From a virus: a stretch of DNA of 46,542 nucleotides. Below the pieces are notes generated by a model. It was not told the origin of the DNA and made no database searches. It was given only the letters and a program-made list of their open reading frames with translations. This document shows positions 128 through 43,946 of the stretch, piece after piece. The stretch lies in IMG/VR virus record IMGVR_UViG_3300035115_000001, positions 1 to 46,542 of that record; one strand, 5' to 3'. Position 1 is the first letter of the stretch. Every line of letters begins with the position of its first letter. Made by a program: the position numbers and the translations under genes.

Positions 128-140
128 TTACGGCCGGGCC
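119..140 (+). terminator. Strong GC hairpin after the rightward accessory operon
   Basis: GGCCCGGCC (119-127), loop TTAC, GGCCGGGCC (132-140): a perfect 9-bp stem 7 bases after the stop of the 24-residue gene. There is no U-tract, as is usual for high-GC actinobacterial terminators. It separates the rightward operon from the T-arm cluster and the converging sigma-like gene. Confidence 0.75.
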
Positions 141-141
141 A

Positions 142-284
142 TCAAGGGTAGAGCGGTAGCGTAAGCCGGTTCGATTCCGGCCTTGAGTCTGGCGACTGGG
201 TGGGGTTCGATTCCCCTTCAACCGAGGTGATCCCAATAGCGGCGACGGTCGCGCGCAGAGAGGTTCGACTCCTCTCCTACCCAC
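142..284 (+). ncRNA. Cluster of three tRNA T-arm-like hairpins
   Basis: This gene-free stretch holds three T-arms with canonical TTCGAYT loops: GCCGG/CCGGC at 165-181, GGGG/CCCC at 202-216 and GAGAGG/CCTCTC at 258-276. Before each lies a GG-containing element resembling a D-arm; the second is AGTC-TGGC-GACT (186-197), close to the mini D-hairpin at 40151-40162. TCAAG (142-146) pairs with CTTGA (182-186). Alternatively GGGTAG (146-151) pairs with CTACCC (277-282) and encloses the whole cluster. No anticodon arms are seen. It is probably transcribed by readthrough from the rightward operon, and antisense to nothing known. Confidence 0.55.
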
Positions 285-965
285 TCAGCCGTTGTAGTCT
301 CGTTCGACGCGAGCCTGTCCAGCGGCGCTTCCACGGGCCTCTCTGCGCCCGTCATAGCCCCTCCGAAGCTCGGAGAGGGATTGCTGGCCGAGGAGTACCT
401 GTATGGCCTTCAGTGCCCGCTGGTGGCGCTCTGAGACTGCCTGCTTGGTGGTCTCGGTGTCCGCAGCGATCTGGGTGAAGGTCCTCTGATACTTGTACCT
501 CCAGACCAGAAGGTTGTAGTAGTCGTCGGGAAGCTGGGACACGGCACGAGATACGTCAGCGTACGAGGCGAGGTTATTGCCACCAAGGGCGGGTTCCGAC
601 TTGGCCCGAGGCATTCCATCGCCGATCGCAGAAGCGATCGACTGCCAGTCCTCATGCTCGAAGACGACTTCGAGGATGCTCTTGATCATGTCGAGCGAGT
701 ACGTGAACCTGTCCTGCTCATCGTATCCGTAGACCTGCGCATCTTCCTGCTTCAGGTAGGAGTTCGCAGCACGGACGAGCAGGCCGTCGAGCTTGTTCTC
801 ACCACCATCTTCGGTGAGTACCCGCATGACGGTGTTCTTGTTGCTCATGATCCACGCCCACAGCTCCTGCTTCACGTCGGAGATGTCGTGGTGTCCAGGG
901 AAGTTGGACGCAGCGATTCCGGCCGCACGCTCGACGGCCGGGGTCAGTCTAGTCCAGTCGATCAT
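285..965 (-). CDS. Sigma factor-like protein (region 4 HTH)
   Basis: 226 residues. Residues about 135-190 (SQLPDDYYNLLVWRY... TFTQIAADTETTKQAVSERHQRAL) match sigma-70 region 4: an LP-rich lead-in followed by a helix-turn-helix and an arginine-rich recognition helix. The N-terminal part is weakly like sigma region 2 and acidic. It is likely to redirect host RNA polymerase to phage promoters, perhaps late ones. It is last in a leftward three-gene operon; its ATG overlaps the upstream stop as ATGA. The lysine- and arginine-rich tail is unusual. It could instead be a sigma-like transcription regulator without polymerase-core binding. Confidence 0.75.
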   Translation of the reverse strand: MIDWTRLTPAVERAAGIAASNFPGHHDISDVKQELWAWIMSNKNTVMRVLTEDGGENKLDGLLVRAANSYLKQEDAQVYGYDEQDRFTYSLDMIKSILEVVFEHEDWQSIASAIGDGMPRAKSEPALGGNNLASYADVSRAVSQLPDDYYNLLVWRYKYQRTFTQIAADTETTKQAVSERHQRALKAIQVLLGQQSLSELRRGYDGRREARGSAAGQARVERDYNG

Positions 966-5387: not shown

Positions 5388-5467
5388 GGGCCCGGAATGG
5401 TTTCGACTGCCACTCAAAACCGCACGCGGAGGGTGGTAGGACAGGGGTTCGAATCCCCTCGGGTCCA
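5388..5467 (+). ncRNA. tmRNA-like RNA reduced to its tRNA-like domain
   Basis: Acceptor GGGCCCG (5388-5394) pairs with CGGGTCC (5460-5466), with a G3-U70 wobble and A73 (5467), the alanine identity set. The T-arm is AGGGG-TTCGAAT-CCCCT (5443-5459). In place of a D-arm it has TGGTTTCGAC (5399-5408), the hallmark of tmRNA 5' ends, followed by a 7-bp stem CTGCCAC/GTGGTAG (5407-5413/5433-5439) and then GGAC just before the T-arm, as in tmRNA. There is no anticodon arm, tag reading frame or pseudoknot. CCA is not encoded. It lies between the terminator and the gene at 5487. Confidence 0.7.
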
Positions 5468-5486
5468 CGCACTAAGGAGGTGCCCC

Positions 5487-22029: not shown

Positions 22030-22089
22030 CCGCTGTGCTTGATGATTACCGGTCTTGGTTACGAGTGACTGGGCCGGTCGTTCCGTCAC

Positions 22090-22161
22090 TGGTGGGCTGC
22101 CGGGATTCGAACCCGGATCGCTCCGCATCTGGAGTTATGGTGTGCCAAACCACTTCAGCCC
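22090..22161 (-). tRNA. Non-canonical tRNA-like RNA, 72 nt
   Basis: Read leftward: acceptor GGGCTG/CAGCCC (6 bp only) with ACCA encoded at the 3' end (22093-22090), D-arm TGGT-TTGGCAC-ACCA, anticodon-like hairpin CTCC-AGATGC-GGAG with a 6-nt loop, and T-arm CCGGG-TTCGAAT-CCCGG. The acceptor/T stack is 11 bp instead of 12 and the anticodon stem and loop are short, so decoding is doubtful and no anticodon can be assigned. It lies exactly between two late genes. Confidence 0.65.
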
Positions 22162-22167
22162 TGGGCG

Positions 22168-35600: not shown

Positions 35601-35769
35601 GGGTCACTCCTTCGTCGTCGGGGCCAGGCTTGTCCCCTACATAGAACTTCAGCGTCTTGCGGTTGGATCGTGAGATGTGGAGCATCGTGATCGGCACCCA
35701 CAGCGCAGAGGCTGCGAGGTTGGGCCAGATCTTACTCCACCAGTCTGCGAGAGTCCTTGTCAGCTCCAT
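35593..35769 (-). CDS. 58-residue membrane protein, holin candidate
   Basis: Hydrophobic segment at about 13-33 (IWPNLAASALWVPITMLHI), charged tail. Overlaps terminase at its start and the endolysin gene at its end, so it is translationally coupled to lysis. A single-pass holin or anti-holin is likely. Confidence 0.65.
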   Translation of the reverse strand: MELTRTLADWWSKIWPNLAASALWVPITMLHISRSNRKTLKFYVGDKPGPDDEGVTHD

Positions 35770-37646
35770 CCACCGAACCCCCCTCCGAACTCGGCCGTCT
35801 GGCTCAGGTAGTCTAGGTCGACCGTCACCTGCTTCTTGCGGTCGCGCTCAGACTGGTAGTCGTTGTTGATGTGGAACACGGTCTCGATGTCGTTCACCAG
35901 TTCACGGGCTCGCGTCTCTGCGAACCACAGCGCCATCACGGTGTCCTGCTTGGCCTTGGACTGAGGGAACCAGGTGACGAGCTGCTCGACCAGCGCCTTG
36001 ACGCCTTCCTGCTGGGAGCGGCTGGGGAGCCTGATCAGGCCCTGCCCTTCCTTCGCCCCGTCGAACAGCATCGACATCGATGCGACGCCGAAGTCGGCGT
36101 CGTTCTTGTTGGCTCCGGTGAAGTGCTCCTTGAGGATCGTGCCCCTGCTACCGAGGAAGTTCCGGAGGTCACGGTTCTGCGTGACCATCAGGTTCATCGC
36201 GTTCTTCTCGATGACCCACTCGTGCATGTGATACTTGACGGTCCAGTCCTTCAGCTTGTTGAAGAGGTCGTCTGGCTTCTGGTTGGGAGCGGTCCATACG
36301 TCGAGCACATATCGCATACCGGACATACGATCAACACCGAGGACCACGGCGGCTGCATGTCCCGTGATGGCCGGGTCGAACCCGCCCACAACGTAGAGTC
36401 CGTCCATACCGTGCGGTCGATGACCGGGGGCACCGGGGGACATGAGTCCCGCTGCTCGCATCCCGTCGATACTAGCTGCAACCTTATCTGCCGGGAAGAT
36501 CGCATCCTCGACCACCTGCTCCTGTTGGTAGACCATCTTCCAGTTCTGAGCCGAGCTTGTGGCTCGGCGACGTGCTAGCGCTCGTCCTGAGTGCCAGGGG
36601 TAGAGGCCGTGTTCGTTCGCCTCCACCAGTCGTCTTGCTCCGAGCGACACCGGGGGTCGGTTGGTCCAGGGTGCGAGAACAACCCAGTCATCTGGGTGCT
36701 CTGCGAACTCAAGGACCGCAGGCTGGGTGAGGTAGGTCCAGGGTGACTCTTCATCCTGCCCGTACCACTCTGGCTTCTGAATCTCTGAGTAGAGTTCCAC
36801 AGGAGCAAGCCGCGTGCCGACGAGGAGAAGTACACCACCGGGGTAGCTGAGCCGGTTGATGACCTCTCGCTGAATCCAGTCGATCTGCTTCTCGAACTCA
36901 TGAGCGTTCTTTCCTGTCACGGTGTCGTCGAGGATGATCAGGTCGGCACGGTTGCCGTAGATCTGGCCGTTCATGCCGAGCGCCTGCACGGTAGGCGTAG
37001 CCTCACCGGAGTCTCGGGCTTCTGCGTTCACGTAGATCGAGTCGGCGGTCCACGACGCGGAGTTCGCGTCGAACCCGCCTTCAGGGGCGAAGTCGTGCTG
37101 GAGCTTCTTGTAGGCCAGGTTCGCACCGCTAAGGCGGTCCTTCACCGCCCGCAGGAACCGCTTGGCCATCTCCTGCGTCTGGGACACGATGATGATACGG
37201 ATGTTCGGGTCCTGGCAGATACGCCAGGTGGTATAGTTCACGGTGATCGTCGTGGACTTCGCATGCTCCGGAGGGGTGTTCACGATGATCATACCAGGGT
37301 CACCCGGCTTGTAGATCTGGTTCTCGTGAAGGTTCCTCGGCGGACGTCCCTCCAGGACGTCGTACCACTGGAGCTGGTGGTTGAACAGCTTGGTGTCTAG
37401 GTACTCCTCGCAGAACTCCGGGAAGTCGGGGACTTCCTTCCGCTCTGACATCGAACTAGCGGTCTCCATGTTGCTGAGGCGGTTGTACTCAGCACGGAAC
37501 TCCTTGTCCGACTCCTTGTAGTACTGGACGGCCTGCTTCGTGATACCCAGGTCGAGGATAGCCTTCGACATGGGGATACCCTTCCTCATGTAGTTGAGGA
37601 CGGTATCCTTCTTCTCACGAGTGGTCCTGTTGACTGGTCTAGGCAT
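35760..37646 (-). CDS. terL: Terminase large subunit
   Basis: 628 residues from ATG 37646 (SD AAGGAGG); upstream in-frame codons are leader. A helix-turn-helix-like N-terminus (KAILDLGITKQAVQYYKE) may replace a separate small subunit, which is not found. ATPase: Walker A PPEHAKST (125-132), SQTQEMAKR, Walker B ADLIILDDT (234-242). RNase H-like nuclease: VVGGFDPAITG near 420 and later acidic residues. First gene of the late operon. Confidence 0.9.
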   Translation of the reverse strand: MPRPVNRTTREKKDTVLNYMRKGIPMSKAILDLGITKQAVQYYKESDKEFRAEYNRLSNMETASSMSERKEVPDFPEFCEEYLDTKLFNHQLQWYDVLEGRPPRNLHENQIYKPGDPGMIIVNTPPEHAKSTTITVNYTTWRICQDPNIRIIIVSQTQEMAKRFLRAVKDRLSGANLAYKKLQHDFAPEGGFDANSASWTADSIYVNAEARDSGEATPTVQALGMNGQIYGNRADLIILDDTVTGKNAHEFEKQIDWIQREVINRLSYPGGVLLLVGTRLAPVELYSEIQKPEWYGQDEESPWTYLTQPAVLEFAEHPDDWVVLAPWTNRPPVSLGARRLVEANEHGLYPWHSGRALARRRATSSAQNWKMVYQQEQVVEDAIFPADKVAASIDGMRAAGLMSPGAPGHRPHGMDGLYVVGGFDPAITGHAAAVVLGVDRMSGMRYVLDVWTAPNQKPDDLFNKLKDWTVKYHMHEWVIEKNAMNLMVTQNRDLRNFLGSRGTILKEHFTGANKNDADFGVASMSMLFDGAKEGQGLIRLPSRSQQEGVKALVEQLVTWFPQSKAKQDTVMALWFAETRARELVNDIETVFHINNDYQSERDRKKQVTVDLDYLSQTAEFGGGFGGWS

Positions 37647-38764
37647 TGTACCTCCTTGTCGGCTCCTCTTGACCCATACAGGTCCCCGCCCTGGAGGCGG
37701 GACCCCATCCAGCGGGGAGAGATTCCGCGAAGCGAGAGGAGGTACTTTAGATACTAGTAGGCAGCCCTGGAGGGCTGCCGTACTTGTGTTGACTGTGTTG
37801 GGCCAGCCTTGAGGGCTGGCCACCTGTGGTGGCCTCTGTCGAGCCGCTTCGCAGGCTCACTGTGTCTATATATAGAGAGGACCCCGACCTGCCTACTTGG
37901 ACCACGTCGGAGTGCGAATGTTACCAAACCTTTACCAATGTTGTACGGAGCGTAGTCGTAGGAGGCCCATCCGGTCACTCTCTGTAGAGCATCCCTGTCA
38001 TGGGCACGGTCAAGTTTTATGGCAGATTTCTAAGGGGTCTCACTCCCTCCCCCCCAGCGGCCAGTTAACAACCCGGGGTCGAACCAGGGCAAACCGGGAC
38101 ACACCGGACAGCCGTGCCCGCCCGACTTGCCCCAGGATGCACCAGTTTCAGCCATGATGTCCGAATCGTGCCGATCGTGGCAGAACGTGATGATATGTGT
38201 ACACATAGTAGGAAATGACACACACATGTGACTGTTTGCCCACGTTTGGGGGCGGGGACTGTCACCTGTCTAGGGGGTGACGCATGATGACCTAATGTCC
38301 TGACATGCCAGCCACGTGCTGGCCAGGGAATGTCATGACATTCAGACAAGCGAGCCCTACGCGTACGCAGGTACCCGCGCTACACGCATCACGCTGTGCA
38401 GGAGCGCAGTGTTACGGACTACCAAACTAGGACATCCTGATCATCCACGCTGGTCAGACACATGATCATCAGAACGTTTGCTCGGGCTAACAGCGAATCC
38501 GAAACGGACATACCACCACGTTCTATCCCAGCTTTGTAGCATGTTCTGTACCAACCACCAAGATCGATGTCCGATTCGCCCCAGCCTGGGGGCTGTGCCC
38601 TGACTTCTCCCCGCCGACATGCCTGACCAGGCAGATCCATGATCTTTCGAGGAATTTCCATGATCCTTTGGGTTTGCCGAGGGTCTCAGGACTGCAAACA
38701 CGAGTGATCCACAACCCCTCTGACCTGCAAGAGTAGACAGACCTAGCTGCAAAGGCGCTTAGTT
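37647..38764. promoter_or_regulatory. Gene-free control region: leader hairpins, operators, palindromes
   Basis: No gene found. Leftward leader of terminase: hairpins at 37681-37704 (9 bp with a bulge), 37760-37779 (GGCAGCCC/GGGCTGCC) and 37801-37821 (GGCCAGCC/GGCTGGCC). TCTATATATAGA near 37864-37875 can supply a leftward -10. TTACCAA is repeated 11 bases apart at 37921 and 37932. Further right are 14-bp perfect palindromes TATGTGTACACATA (38194-38207) and AATGTCATGACATT (38329-38342), ATGTC-CT-GACAT (38295-38306), GCCAGC/GCTGGC (38307-38323), and TGATCATC twice (38438, 38463). It is the best place for the late promoter, an origin or a packaging site; none is proved. Confidence 0.55.
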
Positions 38765-39600
38765 ATGCCATCGCCACCGAGCAACACGGCGAGGGGCCAC
38801 CGGCCCCGCGTTCCTTGAACAACTCAACAGCGACTCGACTGCCCGGCCATAGGCCAGGGCCCGCGAGCGGCGAACAAGCACGGCGTAAGCCCTGCGAAGT
38901 AGTCAGGAACGGGTACGCCTGGAAGGGGCCACACTTGACACGGGCCCTAGGGCCGTGCGACAGTCCTCTCAACGCCGAGACAGGCGACGGGATCACCAGA
39001 CACCCCTTGTGGGCTAAAACGCGGTGTGACTTAGCCACTCATGTCTCAAACGCGTTGAACTAAGGGGACTTGACAACGGGCTTCAGCCCGTGCGACAGTC
39101 GAGTCGCTAGCGAGGGACCGCAAGGGACCTTGCAGTGCCGCAGATGCCCGTGAGGGCCTTTGCCTCCGAGCGGAGGTACTGCGGAGCACGGGTCATCGGC
39201 TGACAGAACGGCACCCTCCCGGGTGTTGGGTCGTAGGTGACAGGTGGGACCTTCCGAAGGGCTGTAATGGCCTGGAGGGCCTGGCTACAGATGCGTCGGG
39301 GATCAGCTCCCCGCCGTATGGACGGCGGTAGCAGGAGTCGAGAACACCAGGGCCGTTCTTTGAGAAGTGAATAGTGTAGCAGGACGTGAGCGGGGCGTAG
39401 TCTGCCTGTCAAGCTCGCAGTACCTTGAAGCCGGGATCTCCCCTAAGCACAACGCAAGCAAGCACCTTGGGAGCTAGCCATCGGCTGCGAGTGAGTTCAC
39501 GTCCAGTCCAATTCCCTGTAAGAGCCATCGGACACAGGGTGACAGCACCTAGGCAGTCATGCCGACAGTCATCACCCTGTGTCCTCTTGGCTCCGCAGAG
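38765..39600 (+). ncRNA. Large structured non-coding RNA, about 830 nt
   Basis: No credible gene, but dense perfect stems. Long range: 38829-38841 with 39096-39108 (13 bp). Inside: 38882-38887/38914-38919; 38962-38966/39066-39070; 38969-38975/39052-39058; 38977-38982/39042-39047; 39012-39017/39031-39036. Two copies of TTGACA-hairpin-CGTGCGACAGTC (38935, 39070) have the same 17-base spacing and different but pairing hairpins. 3' part: three-way junction at 39138-39184, hairpin 39311-39328, arms 39438-39442/39469-39473, and a final stem 39522-39527+39530-39542/39572-39584+39588-39593. Size and phage location recall GOLLD/ROOL-type ornate RNAs; identity untested. Strand assumed from the next gene. 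Confidence 0.65.
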
Positions 39601-39613
39601 AGAGGTGATCAAG

Positions 39614-39817
39614 ATGTACGTAGTCATGATCCTCGTGGATGGTCAGCGCGTCGCCTGCAACAGGCGAGCGACGCTGACAGACGTGGTGTTCCTCTGTGAA
39701 CTGGCCGGGCCCGACCTGGAGCTGTTCGAGAGGACCCTGTCGTCGACCGGCCAGGCCATGAACGTCCGCAACGACGGGTATGGCGCGGTGGTCACCATCG
39801 CCCATGAGGAAATCTAG
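39614..39817 (+). CDS. Hypothetical 67-residue accessory protein
   Basis: ATG with SD AGAGGTG, 20 bases after the last stem of the large RNA. MILVDGQRVACNRRATLTDVVFLCELAG resembles small alpha/beta phage proteins. Followed by minihelix 1. Not recognised. Confidence 0.7.
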   Translation: MYVVMILVDGQRVACNRRATLTDVVFLCELAGPDLELFERTLSSTGQAMNVRNDGYGAVVTIAHEEI

Positions 39818-39838
39818 CCTGGAGGTGATCCAGTCTAA

Positions 39839-39878
39839 GGGTGAACGGCATACACCCAGGTTCGAGTCCTGGGCACTC
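39839..39878 (+). ncRNA. tRNA top-half minihelix 1
   Basis: GGGTG/CACTC outer stem (one G-U), linker AACGGCATACA, CCCAGG/CCTGGG inner stem, loop TTCGAGT. It is followed by hairpin GGTCGC-ACAA-GCGGCC (39882-39897) and the SD of the 39916 gene. Confidence 0.8.
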
Positions 39879-39915
39879 GCTGGTCGCACAAGCGGCCTGT
39901 CTGAAAGGGATGAAC

Positions 39916-40143
39916 ATGGACGGATACACCGACGAGTCCCGCTACACCATCGGCTACACCGATGGTGGCTACCGCCATGAGGTCAAGGTGGATGCGTGGC
40001 TCACCGTCGAGTCCGTGGCGCTCGCCCTGTCCGTCAAGTACGGTCGGGTAGACATGGTCAACAACTTCAACGGCGCCGAGGGCGCCTACCGAGACGGTGT
40101 CAAGCTGTGGACCGACGCCAAGTTCTCGGACCTCTATGCGTGA
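39916..40143 (+). CDS. Hypothetical 75-residue accessory protein
   Basis: ATG 39916 (AAAGGG 6 bases upstream) rather than 39910. Tyr/Asp-rich start, then HEVKVDAWLTVESVALALSVKYGRVD. Unit 1 of the minihelix-punctuated series. Not recognised. Confidence 0.7.
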   Translation: MDGYTDESRYTIGYTDGGYRHEVKVDAWLTVESVALALSVKYGRVDMVNNFNGAEGAYRDGVKLWTDAKFSDLYA

Positions 40144-40145
40144 CA

Positions 40146-40190
40146 GCTCTGGTCTGGTGACCTAGGGCGGGTTCGATCCCCGCCCAGAGC
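40146..40190 (+). ncRNA. tRNA-like element with mini D-hairpin (variant)
   Basis: GCTCT/AGAGC outer stem, hairpin GGTC-TGGT-GACC (40151-40162) in D-arm position, T-arm GGGCGGG-TTCGATC-CCCGCCC; 12 bp stacked as in real tRNA. It begins 2 bases after a stop codon. Hairpin GAGGCGCC/GGCGCCTC (40195-40215) follows. Intermediate between a tRNA and the 40-nt minihelices. Confidence 0.75.
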
Positions 40191-40232
40191 ACGGGAGGCG
40201 CCACAAGGGCGCCTCTGATTGAGGGAGCGGAC

Positions 40233-40610
40233 ATGATCGAAATCACCTACGCTGATGCTCTCGACGGCCTCAAGGCCCTCGTCGCGGAGGCTGGTGAGGA
40301 CTTCATCTACAGCAAGCGTGAGGCGAGCGATGGCTACGGCGGTCGCTGTGTCTACGTCTTTGAGGGCAAGCCCGACTGCATCGTGGGCAAGTACCTCGCG
40401 AAGGTCGGCGTGTCGCTGGACGAGCTGAAGAAGGCTGACGGTCGAGGGTTCGGCGACCCTGCCGATGCGCTGCTCGACCGGCTTGAGTTCAACGGCGTGA
40501 TCAACGTCGAGCCCAAGGCTATCGTCCTCCTCCAGGAGGCGCAGTACCACCAGGACCAGGGCAACACCTGGGGCTGCGCCCTGCGGCGCGCTGAAGCCCG
40601 AACGTCCTAA
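40233..40610 (+). CDS. Hypothetical 125-residue accessory protein
   Basis: SD GAGGGAG. Alpha/beta-looking (YADALDGLKALVAEAGEDFIYSKRE), with CVYVFEGKPDCIVGKYLAKVG near 39-59. Not recognised. Preceded by the variant tRNA-like element and followed by minihelix 2. Confidence 0.75.
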   Translation: MIEITYADALDGLKALVAEAGEDFIYSKREASDGYGGRCVYVFEGKPDCIVGKYLAKVGVSLDELKKADGRGFGDPADALLDRLEFNGVINVEPKAIVLLQEAQYHQDQGNTWGCALRRAEARTS

Positions 40611-40618
40611 GCACAACA

Positions 40619-40658
40619 GCCCGAATGGCATACACTCAGGTTCGAGTCCTGAGCGGGC
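40619..40658 (+). ncRNA. tRNA top-half minihelix 2
   Basis: GCCCG/CGGGC, linker AATGGCATACA, CTCAGG/CCTGAG, loop TTCGAGT; begins 8 bases after the previous stop. Hairpin GGAGCGC/GCGCTCC (40662-40682) follows. Confidence 0.8.
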
Positions 40659-40700
40659 ACTGGAGCGCTACAGGGGCGCTCCTGGTATGAGGAGAGCGTG

Positions 40701-41141
40701 ATGACTCGCTTCAACACGTACTACATGGACGAGGCCGTTTTCAACCTGGAGCAGGTTGTCAAGACTGCCGTGGAACGACTGGCGGATGTCGAGTTCGACA
40801 CCCTGGTCGGGACCGGCTTCTCGGGCGGCATCGTCATCCCCTCTGTGGCACTCGCCCTGGGTAAGAAGTTCGTCCTGATCCGGAAGGAGACGGACGACTC
40901 CCACCACGGCAAGGGCCGCCTCCTCGGAGAACTCGGCGCCCGCTGGATCTTCATGGACGACTTCGTGTCGTCCGGGAGGACCCGTCAGCGCGTCCTCAAC
41001 AAGGTCGACGAGTACGTCAGGATGTACGCTGACCAGGGCGCCGAGACCGAGTTCGTGGGGCAGTACATGTACATCGACTACTCCGAGGCCGGTCCTCAGT
41101 TCGAAACGGCTAGGTACTGCCGTACCGGGTACGAGTACTGA
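40701..41141 (+). CDS. Phosphoribosyltransferase-like protein
   Basis: 146 residues (ATG 40701 after GAGGAG; GTG 40698 possible). WIFMDDFVSSGRTRQRV (82-98) is the PRPP-binding loop of type I phosphoribosyltransferases; GTGFSGGIVIPSVAL near 38 and KKFVLIRKETDDSHHG (55-70, flexible loop) fit the fold. Substrate unknown: salvage of host nucleobases, or chemistry on a defence nucleotide. Confidence 0.8.
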   Translation: MTRFNTYYMDEAVFNLEQVVKTAVERLADVEFDTLVGTGFSGGIVIPSVALALGKKFVLIRKETDDSHHGKGRLLGELGARWIFMDDFVSSGRTRQRVLNKVDEYVRMYADQGAETEFVGQYMYIDYSEAGPQFETARYCRTGYEY

Positions 41142-41153
41142 TAGTATCCGGTA

Positions 41154-41193
41154 GCCAGAACGGCATACTCCGGGGTTCGAGTCCCCGGCTGGC
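41154..41193 (+). ncRNA. tRNA top-half minihelix 3
   Basis: GCCAG/CTGGC, linker AACGGCATACT, CCGGGG/CCCCGG, loop TTCGAGT, 12 bases after the previous stop. Hairpin CCTCAGC-TCCC-GCTGAGG (41201-41218, extendable to 9 bp) follows. Confidence 0.85.
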
Positions 41194-41239
41194 ACTCAGG
41201 CCTCAGCTCCCGCTGAGGTCGAGGCTCACAGGAGGAATC

Positions 41240-41647
41240 GTGACCGTTACCAACGTCGCCACACGTGGGGACTACCTGGCGGCCCTTGAGGCCGCTCGAC
41301 AGGAGTCTCCGCGTATCGCCGAGTCGACCACAGCGCCCAAGGACATGCCGAGGGATGCGTGGTACCGTCTCTCCCCCGACGGTAAGTCGGGGTTCGGTGT
41401 GACGTTCAACCATGAGCTGATCGGCTTGTTCTCCCTGGTCCCCGGACGCGGGAAGGACATGGTCGAGGAGGCTATCGGTCTGGACCACGTCGAGTATCTG
41501 GACTGCTTTGACGGCTTCCTGCCGTCGTACTACGAGCAGTTCGGGTTCGTCGAGTACAAGCGTGAGGCCAACTGGACCGAGGGCGGTCCGGACGTGGTCT
41601 ACATGCGAATGCGTAACAGCTCTGTCCCCGACGGTGACCTGTCCTGA
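41240..41647 (+). CDS. GNAT-type acetyltransferase-like protein
   Basis: 135 residues, GTG start with SD AGGAGG. Late strand-helix features LIGLFSLVPGRGKDMVEEAI (loop and helix that would bind acetyl-CoA) and FLPSYYEQFGFVEYKRE, the usual GNAT C-terminal 'YekfGF' motif. Substrate unknown; phage acetyltransferases can modify host polymerase or toxins. Confidence 0.75.
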   Translation: MTVTNVATRGDYLAALEAARQESPRIAESTTAPKDMPRDAWYRLSPDGKSGFGVTFNHELIGLFSLVPGRGKDMVEEAIGLDHVEYLDCFDGFLPSYYEQFGFVEYKREANWTEGGPDVVYMRMRNSSVPDGDLS

Positions 41648-41680
41648 CGGGGGTGGTCAGGGGCGTGAACTAGCCCCACA

Positions 41681-41720
41681 GGGTGACCGGCAGGCATCAA
41701 GGTTCGAGCCCTTGACACCC
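41681..41720 (+). ncRNA. tRNA top-half minihelix 4
   Basis: GGGTG/CACCC (one G-U absent; fully paired by G-C, T-A and G-C), linker ACCGGCAGGCA, TCAAGG/CCTTGA, loop TTCGAGC. Hairpin GGATCGA/TCGATCC (41724-41744) follows. Confidence 0.8.
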
Positions 41721-41760
41721 ACGGGATCGACAAGTGATCGATCCTGGGAATGAGGACATC

Positions 41761-42096
41761 ATGCGTAAGGATGCCGGATTCAGCTTTCTCACGGTGATCG
41801 TGGGGCTGATCGTCGCTGCATTCATCCTGGCGGCCGTGGTGGCCTGCAACGGTACCGGTGGTGGCGACAGCTACTACTACCCGCAGGACACCCACCACGG
41901 CTACTACGACACGCACCACCACTACCACTACTACCCCAAGTACGACCGACGTTCCAAGGTCTACGTGGCGCCCCGTAAGGGCGCCCCTGGGGTGAAGGTG
42001 AAGCCTGCTCCCCGTTCGGGTGGCGGCTCTGTCTTCAAGGGTGGCAGCGGGTTCCGCAAGTCGTCCGGTGGGTTCTCCTCCGGACGCCGTCGGTAA
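41761..42096 (+). CDS. Predicted lipoprotein, His/Tyr- then Gly/Arg-rich
   Basis: 111 residues; ATG 41761, SD GAGG. Hydrophobic segment 8-28 ends in VVAC (Cys29), a lipobox, so the protein is probably exported and lipid-anchored. It then has a metal-binding-looking HHGYYDTHHHYHYYPKY and a basic GGSVFKGGSGFRK tail. Extracellular phage lipoproteins can block superinfection; this is inference. Confidence 0.75.
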   Translation: MRKDAGFSFLTVIVGLIVAAFILAAVVACNGTGGGDSYYYPQDTHHGYYDTHHHYHYYPKYDRRSKVYVAPRKGAPGVKVKPAPRSGGGSVFKGGSGFRKSSGGFSSGRRR

Positions 42097-42106
42097 GCAT
42101 GATGGA

Positions 42107-42146
42107 GCCTGAATGGCATACTCCCTGGTTCGAGTCCAGGGCAGGC
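42107..42146 (+). ncRNA. tRNA top-half minihelix 5
   Basis: GCCTG/CAGGC, linker AATGGCATACT, CCCTGG/CCAGGG, loop TTCGAGT, 10 bases after the stop. Hairpin GAGACGGC/GCCGTCTC (42150-42170) follows. Confidence 0.85.
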
Positions 42147-42194
42147 ACTGAGACGGCAAGGTGCCGTCTCTACCTGGCTCACAGGAGGATAACC

Positions 42195-42683
42195 ATGATC
42201 GGTAACCGTGGCTACGCCATGTACATCCGTGAGTGGGTTCGTATCGAGCAGGACAAGACCGCTTGGGGCGACATGCCCAAGCACGCTCCCGAAGGGTGGC
42301 AGTACATCGGTAGCGGATGCTTCCGCTCCGCCTACCTGTCCCCCGACAAGGTGGTCTACAAGGTCCAGCAGACGCCGGGCCTTCAGTCGGGCCAGGCGAA
42401 CATCCAGGAGTACAAGAAGTGGTGGGACATCCGCCTTCAGCACAAGATGCCGAAGGGGAGCCGCCTGCCTATCATGTGCTTCTTCGAGTTCGATGGTCAC
42501 GATGACGTCAACGCGATGGAGTACATCGGCAAGACGTTGAACCGATACGGCGGCCTTGACTACGACGAGTACGCCACCACGCTCCGCCGAGTGTCCACCA
42601 GGCTCCGCCTGTGGGACATGCACCACGGGAACGCGGCTGTCGACGAGAAGAACAAGCTGATCGTCCCGATCGACCTTGGTTGA
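42195..42683 (+). CDS. Mini kinase-like protein A
   Basis: 162 residues, SD AGGAGG. Gly-rich loop GSGCFRS (39-45), VVYKV with Lys56, and at the end DMHHGNA (HxN catalytic-loop-like) and IDLG in DFG position. The chain stops right after that motif, so the usual C-lobe beyond DFG is missing. Homologous to the 43222 gene. It could be a minimal kinase, a pseudokinase that titrates ATP or a partner, or a new nucleotide-binding fold. Confidence 0.75.
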   Translation: MIGNRGYAMYIREWVRIEQDKTAWGDMPKHAPEGWQYIGSGCFRSAYLSPDKVVYKVQQTPGLQSGQANIQEYKKWWDIRLQHKMPKGSRLPIMCFFEFDGHDDVNAMEYIGKTLNRYGGLDYDEYATTLRRVSTRLRLWDMHHGNAAVDEKNKLIVPIDLG

Positions 42684-42690
42684 CGGGACA

Positions 42691-42730
42691 GGGCGAACGG
42701 CATACACTCTGGTTCGAGTCCAGAGCGCCC
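42691..42730 (+). ncRNA. tRNA top-half minihelix 6
   Basis: GGGCG/CGCCC, linker AACGGCATACA, CTCTGG/CCAGAG, loop TTCGAGT, 7 bases after the stop. Hairpin GGGTAC-GCCC-GTACCC (42734-42749) follows. Confidence 0.85.
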
Positions 42731-42766
42731 GCTGGGTACGCCCGTACCCCGAACAGGAGGATGGAC

Positions 42767-43132
42767 ATGCCTTTCTACGGGTACCGTCAGAACAACTCCG
42801 GTGGTGGCTTCGACTTCGACGCGGACGGCGGTATCAGTGTCCACGTGATCATCGAGGCCGACTCGGCGGACGAGGCCGACCGCAAGGCCGAGGACATCGG
42901 CCTGTACTTCGACGGGGCGAGCGACTGCCCCTGCTGCGGAAACCGGTGGTACGAGGCGTCGAGCTGGGACGAGAGCGATGTCCCCAGCCTGTACGGTACG
43001 CCGATCCAGGACGTCGAGTGGGGCAACTACCCCAAGCAGTCCAAGTGGATCAAGGATGGCCCGGAGGCTTACGTCCACTTCAAGGACGGTAAGATCCAGG
43101 GCTACGGCCTGCCCGCGAAGCAGCTCAGCTGA
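42767..43132 (+). CDS. Hypothetical 121-residue protein with CPCCG zinc site
   Basis: ATG 42767, six bases after AGGAGG; ATG 42761 is too close. DADGGISVHVIIEADSADEADRKAEDIGLYFDG then CPCCGNRWYE: an alpha/beta protein with a small zinc knuckle. Not recognised. Confidence 0.75.
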   Translation: MPFYGYRQNNSGGGFDFDADGGISVHVIIEADSADEADRKAEDIGLYFDGASDCPCCGNRWYEASSWDESDVPSLYGTPIQDVEWGNYPKQSKWIKDGPEAYVHFKDGKIQGYGLPAKQLS

Positions 43133-43140
43133 GGTATGGA

Positions 43141-43180
43141 GGGTGACCGGCAGTCACCGGGGTTCGAGACCCCGGCACCC
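43141..43180 (+). ncRNA. tRNA top-half minihelix 7
   Basis: GGGTG/CACCC, linker ACCGGCAGTCA, CCGGGG/CCCCGG, loop TTCGAGA (position 60 is a purine, unlike the others). The following leader lacks a clear hairpin; GATCG (43196-43200) could pair with CGATC (43217-43221) and hide the SD. Confidence 0.8.
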
Positions 43181-43221
43181 ACGCAGTGCTTACAGGATCG
43201 GACAACATAGGAGCAGCGATC

Positions 43222-43725
43222 ATGCACAGCATCGGCAACGAGCACGACGCCCAGACCATCGCGTACTGGGTGCGTTCTCACTCGACCGAGTACGGCCGCC
43301 CCAAGTGCGTCATCCATGGTGAGGCACCGGACGGCTGGAAGTTCCTTGGTAACGGGTCGTTCCGATCCGTCTGGCTCTCGCCGGAAGGCGTGGCCTACAA
43401 GGTGGAGCACGACACCTCTTACACCTACCAGTCGGTAGAGGAGGTGGCCAAGCTCGGCATCGCATGGGACAAGGGGCCCATCAAGGGCTGCCGTCTGCCC
43501 AGGTTCCACAGCTACATCGTGGGAGACGATGACCTGGTGGTCGCCATCGAGGCGATCAACGGCGTCACGCTGTACGAATCCGGGGAGAAGTACTCCCCGG
43601 AGGGCCTCGACTACTACGACTTGCTGTCGGAGATCGAGTCCGCGTACCGGCTGGGCGACATGCACGACGAGAACGCCATTGTAGACGAGGACGGGTACCT
43701 TGTGCCCGTCGACTTCGGCGGCTGA
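43222..43725 (+). CDS. Mini kinase-like protein B
   Basis: 167 residues; SD AGGAG. Shares with the 42195 protein APDGWKFLGNGSFRSVWLSP (35-54), AYKV with Lys60, RLGDMHDENAIVDE and the terminal VPVDFGG. Between these the two differ strongly. Again it ends at DFG. Paralogue probably made by duplication of a whole minihelix-leader-gene unit. Confidence 0.75.
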   Translation: MHSIGNEHDAQTIAYWVRSHSTEYGRPKCVIHGEAPDGWKFLGNGSFRSVWLSPEGVAYKVEHDTSYTYQSVEEVAKLGIAWDKGPIKGCRLPRFHSYIVGDDDLVVAIEAINGVTLYESGEKYSPEGLDYYDLLSEIESAYRLGDMHDENAIVDEDGYLVPVDFGG

Positions 43726-43732
43726 GTAGTAA

Positions 43733-43772
43733 GGGTGGACGGCATACTCCGGGGTTCGAGTCCCCGGCACCC
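43733..43772 (+). ncRNA. tRNA top-half minihelix 8
   Basis: GGGTG/CACCC, linker GACGGCATACT, CCGGGG/CCCCGG, loop TTCGAGT, 7 bases after the stop. Hairpin GCGCTC-GAAC-GAGCGC (43776-43791) follows. Confidence 0.85.
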
Positions 43773-43808
43773 ACGGCGCTCGAACGAGCGCAGCACGAAG
43801 GGAAGATC

Positions 43809-43946
43809 ATGGACGAATACTGGGACTCAGAGGATCAGTGGGTAGACGAGCAGACGTTCGAGCCTGTCTTCCCCGCTGATCTACAGCTTGCCGCCCAGAG
43901 ATGGGCGTACAGCATCGAAGCCGAAGAGAACGACTGCTACGCGTAA
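43809..43946 (+). CDS. 45-residue acidic protein
   Basis: Starts 36 bases after minihelix 8; SD AAGGGAAG. Very acidic with aromatics (MDEYWDSEDQWVDEQ), DNA-mimic-like composition. Function unknown. Confidence 0.65.
   Translation: MDEYWDSEDQWVDEQTFEPVFPADLQLAAQRWAYSIEAEENDCYA

Follow-up and report, generated by a model that had tools for sequence, protein, structure and literature searches.

The region 38765-39600 of the window (the whole stretch of DNA analysed, a virus contig of 46,542 bases) is the untranslated 5' leader of a rightward gene cluster; it lies close to the genome end and is flanked by the terminase gene and ORF 39614-39817. The analysis supports a real, conserved, structured non-coding RNA leader belonging to a family without a match in Rfam. 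By analogy with rRNA operons, it is probably an antitermination leader of the rrn type, representing a new RNA family. This suggests that the means by which rRNA operons keep RNA polymerase running was copied by these phages.

The window originates from a Streptomyces phage, and its kin include the Streptomyces phages JPandJE, Dennebes, WRightOn, Kumquat and Treat. Between the terminase gene and a run of plus-strand genes starting at 39614 there are about 1.8 kb in which no gene is convincing (Table 1). Comparison with WRightOn, whose record stops inside this gene-poor stretch, would place the genome end at about 38045, and the equivalent position is about 0.7 kb away from the region. The matching right end of WRightOn contains no annotated feature as far as its first gene. 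The downstream cargo of the leader consists of protein genes; no rRNA match was found in the window using Rfam.

Table 1. Coordinates of the leader elements and neighbouring features in the window
Feature	Position	Strand	Basis or remark
Terminase large subunit	35760-37823	-	divergent neighbour of the leader
P0 (TAGACA-N18-CTTAGT), weak promoter-like; the longest leader transcript may begin here	38734-38763	+	predicted from position and TTGAC-type relatives
GC hairpin immediately 5' of BoxA1, boxB-like position	38793-38807	+	sequence comparison; similar hairpin in WRightOn
BoxA1 (TTGAACAACTCAACAG), degenerate rrn-type	38815-38830	+	position and relatives
5' arm of 13-bp long-range helix, boxC-like	38829-38841	+	directly after BoxA1
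P1 (TTGACA-N18-GACAGT), palindromic spacer	38935-38964	+	sequence
P2 (TTGACA-N18-GACAGT), palindromic spacer	39070-39099	+	sequence
3' arm of 13-bp long-range helix, trailer-like	39096-39108	+	overlaps P2 -10/+1 region
Conserved stretch 5' of BoxA2 (GGAGTCGAGAACACCAGGGCCG)	39300-39358	+	relatives
BoxA2 (TTGAGAAGTGAATAG), degenerate	39360-39374	+	position and relatives
5' arm of 8-bp helix	39382-39389	+	after BoxA2
3' arm of 8-bp helix	39497-39504	+	abuts 3' module
Conserved 3' module: AGTCCAATTCCCTGTAAGAGCCATCGG - covarying 13-bp stem - CCTCTTGGCTCCGCAGAGA	39505-39601	+	relatives
First ORF of rightward cluster, 67 aa	39614-39817	+	no PHROGs match
Minihelices	39837, 40144-40190, 40617, 41152, 41679, 42105, 42689, 43138, 43731	+	sequence

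The stems described in the initial annotation were found in the region, namely a 13-bp perfect stem spanning 280 nt, which begins directly after BoxA1, many nested stems, and a second 13-bp stem (39530-39542/39572-39584) extended by 6 pairs (39522-39527/39588-39593). Its statement that chance does not produce such a structure agrees with 100 dinucleotide-block shuffles of the region, in which the longest stem was 9.1 bp on average and a 13-bp stem never occurred (0/100). The folding energy of 38765-39600 was lower than that of shuffles (z of about -4.0 on the plus strand and about -3.5 on the minus strand). This value was given no weight, as the signal is modest and similar on both strands, and the case for RNA and for its strand was put to comparative data.

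Stretches beside the terminase gene were compared among 80 IMG/VR loci obtained via a terminase search. Helices at fixed places were found to stay paired in the relatives while their sequence changes, and the compared helices contained 29 G-U cells versus 2 A-C cells, which indicates an RNA of the plus strand. The annotation of the region as structured non-coding RNA is supported: it is the base pairs that are kept, by compensatory changes between related phages, and not coding frames. Protein coding of the overlapping frames was considered and rejected, since the relatives give short, broken hits on both strands. No Rfam match was obtained at the gathering threshold and, at E-values up to 5, none fell within the region. 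A generic scan revealed neither intrinsic terminators nor consensus promoters.

Three blocks were common to the window and its relatives (38500-38765, 39185-39382 and 39500-39538). The spacing between conserved blocks differs from phage to phage, modules are exchanged, and the distance from BoxA to the 3' module in the relatives ranges from 119 to 360 nt. Conservation is strong in 39300-39601, with more variation among phages in the 5' half. In most relatives the hairpin CGTTACTGCCGGTCATAACGGTGGGACG precedes the GGAGTCGAGAACACCAGGGCCG stretch; in the window and in the relative L038 it is replaced. Other recurrent structured inserts, e.g., GCCGAACGCAAGGA...GGGCTTAATGYGG, are located between BoxA and the 3' module in the loci L018, L021, L028 and L039, and the window does not contain them.

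This mosaic bears on the initial proposal of a large ornate RNA resembling GOLLD and ROOL, which are also phage-borne, several hundred nt long and rich in stems (PMC12286853). Such a free-standing RNA would be excised and would accumulate, with BoxA and the helices serving its synthesis or excision as in 16S rRNA. Its size, dense folding, long-range closing helices and the lack of an Rfam match would all fit, and the BoxA-boxC-trailer layout of rRNA precursors does surround a stable RNA (PMC10250234). Nevertheless, this explanation is unlikely, since the enclosed sequence varies in content as well as length, promoter-like sites lie inside it, and the Rfam scan, which included the GOLLD and ROOL models, gave no match. 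In addition, such RNAs had been expected near tRNA genes, but ARAGORN called no tRNA in the window. Instead of a constant fold of about 830 nt, there is a mosaic leader that ends at a ribosome-binding site and is tied to promoters and mRNA. The proposed "new class" holds insofar as the RNA family is new; beyond that, an rrn-type signal is recognisable in it.

This signal is the sequence TTGAGAACTCAACAG, the BoxA antitermination element of actinobacterial rrn operons. GTDB genomes were scanned with the 19-mer TTGAGAACTCAACAGYGTG; among the 80 matches listed, the titled loci were actinobacterial, and a 16S rRNA start was located 111-241 nt downstream of the 19-mer in 38, among them all loci whose downstream DNA exceeded 263 nt. 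Host-type BoxA was present with no more than 1 mismatch over 12 bases in 39 of 59 relatives, versus 0.1 expected from shuffles, and 20 of the 59 had no BoxA at this threshold. The window copies differ from the 14-mer by 3 mismatches (BoxA1) and 2 mismatches (BoxA2), and its 4 BoxA-like sites, with 3.0 expected, are on their own not above chance. Because the degenerate copies alone would not stand out, their assignment was based on position and on the relatives.

Similarity to the host rrn leader itself was found in two further phages. The right-end leader of the Streptomyces phage Caliburn (L003, 614-721) aligned with the rrn promoter-leader of S. scabiei at 79% over 110 nt (E = 1e-17), and the alignment runs from the -10 element through BoxA. 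The leader of the phage Saftant (L004, 613-701) aligned with Streptomyces rrn leaders at 73-92% over 36-94 nt. The Likavirus and Camvirus genomes carry these rrn-like pieces of Caliburn and Saftant at their right end.

A helix arm follows each BoxA and has its partner 115-270 nt downstream. The 8-nt arm begins 7-8 nt past the BoxA2 14-mer, and in most relatives its partner abuts AGTCCAATTCCCTGTAAGAGCC. In 16 phages, 8 of 8 pairs of the BoxA2 helix and 11 of 13 pairs of the 3' module stem were changed on both sides, and covariation of the BoxA2 helix and the 3' module stems was 0.692 versus 0.185 in shuffled data. The share of paired cells in the BoxA2 helix and in the 13-bp and inner stems of the 3' module was 98.8%, compared to 73.7% in shuffles and at most 47% after sliding. 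In 10 phages, the BoxA1 arm of about 11-13 nt has its partner 170-420 nt downstream, with 8 of 11 pairs changed on both sides and a covariation of 0.828 versus 0.241 shuffled, in an alignment whose rows were chosen for having a long complement. The alignments of both BoxA helices were assembled by joining segments after removal of the variable inserts, and their arms were partly found via a complementarity search. An unselected test over 45 BoxA sites gave p = 1e-6 for pairing downstream of BoxA. In the E. coli rrn operons, boxC is located 18-19 nt after boxA and pairs with the trailer, and an RNase III site overlaps the boxC arm (PMC10250234).

The two repeated modules at 38935 and 39070, which had been annotated as parts of the RNA, are present as described and are better read as promoters (P1 and P2): they look like sigma-70 promoters arranged in tandem, with predicted activity. 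The generic scan missed them because GACAGT departs from TATAAT. In the window and its relatives, 27 promoter-like sites were gathered, with -10 forms including TAGAGTC, CAGAGTC and GACAGTC, and the host rrn leader carries GATAGAGTC at the matching place. The palindromic spacers are indeed commoner than chance, stems of at least 5 being found in 37% of the sites versus 4% in shuffles. In the window and at least 6 relatives, a promoter-like site further downstream shares its -10/+1 region with the trailer arm.

These palindromes, together with the proximity to the position matching the WRightOn genome end, would suit a feature acting at the DNA level, i.e., operators or cos/packaging or replication signals whose inverted repeats mimic RNA stems. 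However, the excess of G-U over A-C cells, the variable stem sequences and the fixed placement of the arm after BoxA point to an RNA of one strand, and a DNA-level origin is highly improbable.

The 3' module sits just before the ribosome-binding site of the first gene and occurs in about 25 distinct versions. Its local fold was identical in the relatives folded, and three alternative apical domains were found among the relatives. An exact-match search of the GTDB genomes did not find this module; therefore, it looks restricted to these phages. As the best conserved part, ending at a ribosome-binding site and with alternative apical domains, it could be a riboswitch-like or protein-binding element that controls translation or attenuation of the first gene in cis, with BoxA being secondary. 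We consider this to have a low probability, since no Rfam riboswitch matched and the first gene differs among the relatives, ORF 39614-39817 being present in just 6 loci. For the latter reason, no single gene or ligand pathway could be tied to the 3' module.

All these characteristics allow us to propose the following scheme for an rrn-type antitermination leader. Tandem sigma-70-type promoters would start transcripts of plus polarity, and the nascent RNA would present the rrn-type BoxA once or twice. As in rRNA operons, BoxA would recruit the host NusB-NusE (S10) and other Nus factors to RNA polymerase, and the Nus-bound enzyme would become resistant to termination. The arm after BoxA would pair with its downstream trailer in the manner of boxC, and the long stem of the 3' module beside the ribosome-binding site may be a processing element (RNase III-type) or a translation-control element.

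Elements resembling tRNA or tmRNA were also observed in these genomes. A tRNA-like minihelix of about 45 nt was found on the plus strand in 9 of 9 consecutive intergenic gaps from 39818 to 43809 (Table 1). It comprises an acceptor-like stem, a YGGCA loop in most copies and a T-arm with GGTTCGA, and is followed in most gaps by a hairpin and a ribosome-binding site. Across 45 distinct minihelices from the window and relatives, including Caliburn and Saftant, the acceptor and T-stem positions were 100% paired with 3-5 pair types, and a pair around YGGCA covaries. One exact form was matched in 35 IMG/VR stretches. There was no Rfam tRNA or tmRNA match at the minihelices, and no report of intergenic tRNA-like minihelices in Streptomyces phages was found in the open-licence literature, i.e., outside subscription journals. 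The minihelices are possibly punctuation for RNase P/tRNase Z. A broader idea, which we regard as tentative and rather doubtful, is that the whole rightward cluster imitates an rRNA operon. Transcription would then be driven, in termination-resistant form, by rrn-type promoters together with BoxA units and their leader-trailer helices, and host RNase P/tRNase Z would cut the transcript at the minihelices in every gap into single messages.

In Saftant, an unannotated tRNA- or tmRNA-like element of about 100 nt (about 733-832; GGGGGAG ... GTGTTCGACTCCCCGCCTCCCCACT) is located right after BoxA. In the window, an 83-nt element (5388-5470, plus strand) matched the Rfam tmRNA model (63.8 bits, E = 1e-22); it contains the GGTTTCGACT motif and a T-arm, is much shorter than a tag reading frame would require and can be classified by its sequence as a miniature tmRNA-like element. 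Several T-arm/acceptor combinations resembling reduced or odd tRNA genes were found at 139-290 (plus strand) and 22089-22162 (minus strand), the latter ending in an encoded CCCACCA; ARAGORN called none of them.

Most of what is known about antitermination in phages concerns lambda-type proteins (N, Q) and put RNA. If the proposed reading is true, a borrowed host rRNA antitermination signal would be a route to processive transcription in actinobacteria without a known phage protein, and the leader family would be a natural test system for the joint action of BoxA and a leader-trailer helix. The unannotated right-end stretch in many Streptomyces phages would also be accounted for, by an RNA family that Rfam lacks. 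The same open-licence literature yielded no description of rrn-type BoxA leaders in Streptomyces phages.

A comparison with known systems indicated partial similarity to several of them. The put sites of the phage HK022 are likewise leader RNA structures of a phage that act on elongation, but they do so independently of BoxA and Nus factors, and a relationship to them in sequence or fold is not established. Leaders of lambdoid phages (pL-nutL-RNase III stem-N) share the layout of a promoter, a BoxA-type site and a long stem beside the first gene's ribosome-binding site. Unlike them, the leader described here has a host rrn-type BoxA, no N-type boxB and additional long-range helices, and a cursory look identified no N-like protein. 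The actinobacterial 16S rrn leader is similar in TTGAGAACTCAACAG, in the upstream promoters and in the pairing of the post-BoxA arm far downstream, and a near copy of the host leader occurs in one Streptomyces phage. In contrast to it, no rRNA follows in the phages, the enclosed RNA is short and differs between relatives, the cargo consists of protein genes, and two BoxA units are arranged in series, degenerate in the window. Thus, the phage leader has the host-type BoxA and the arm-trailer pairing of rrn-type BoxA leaders without rRNA downstream; by this analogy, it would work like an rrn leader without being one, and Nus-dependent read-through of terminators is predicted.
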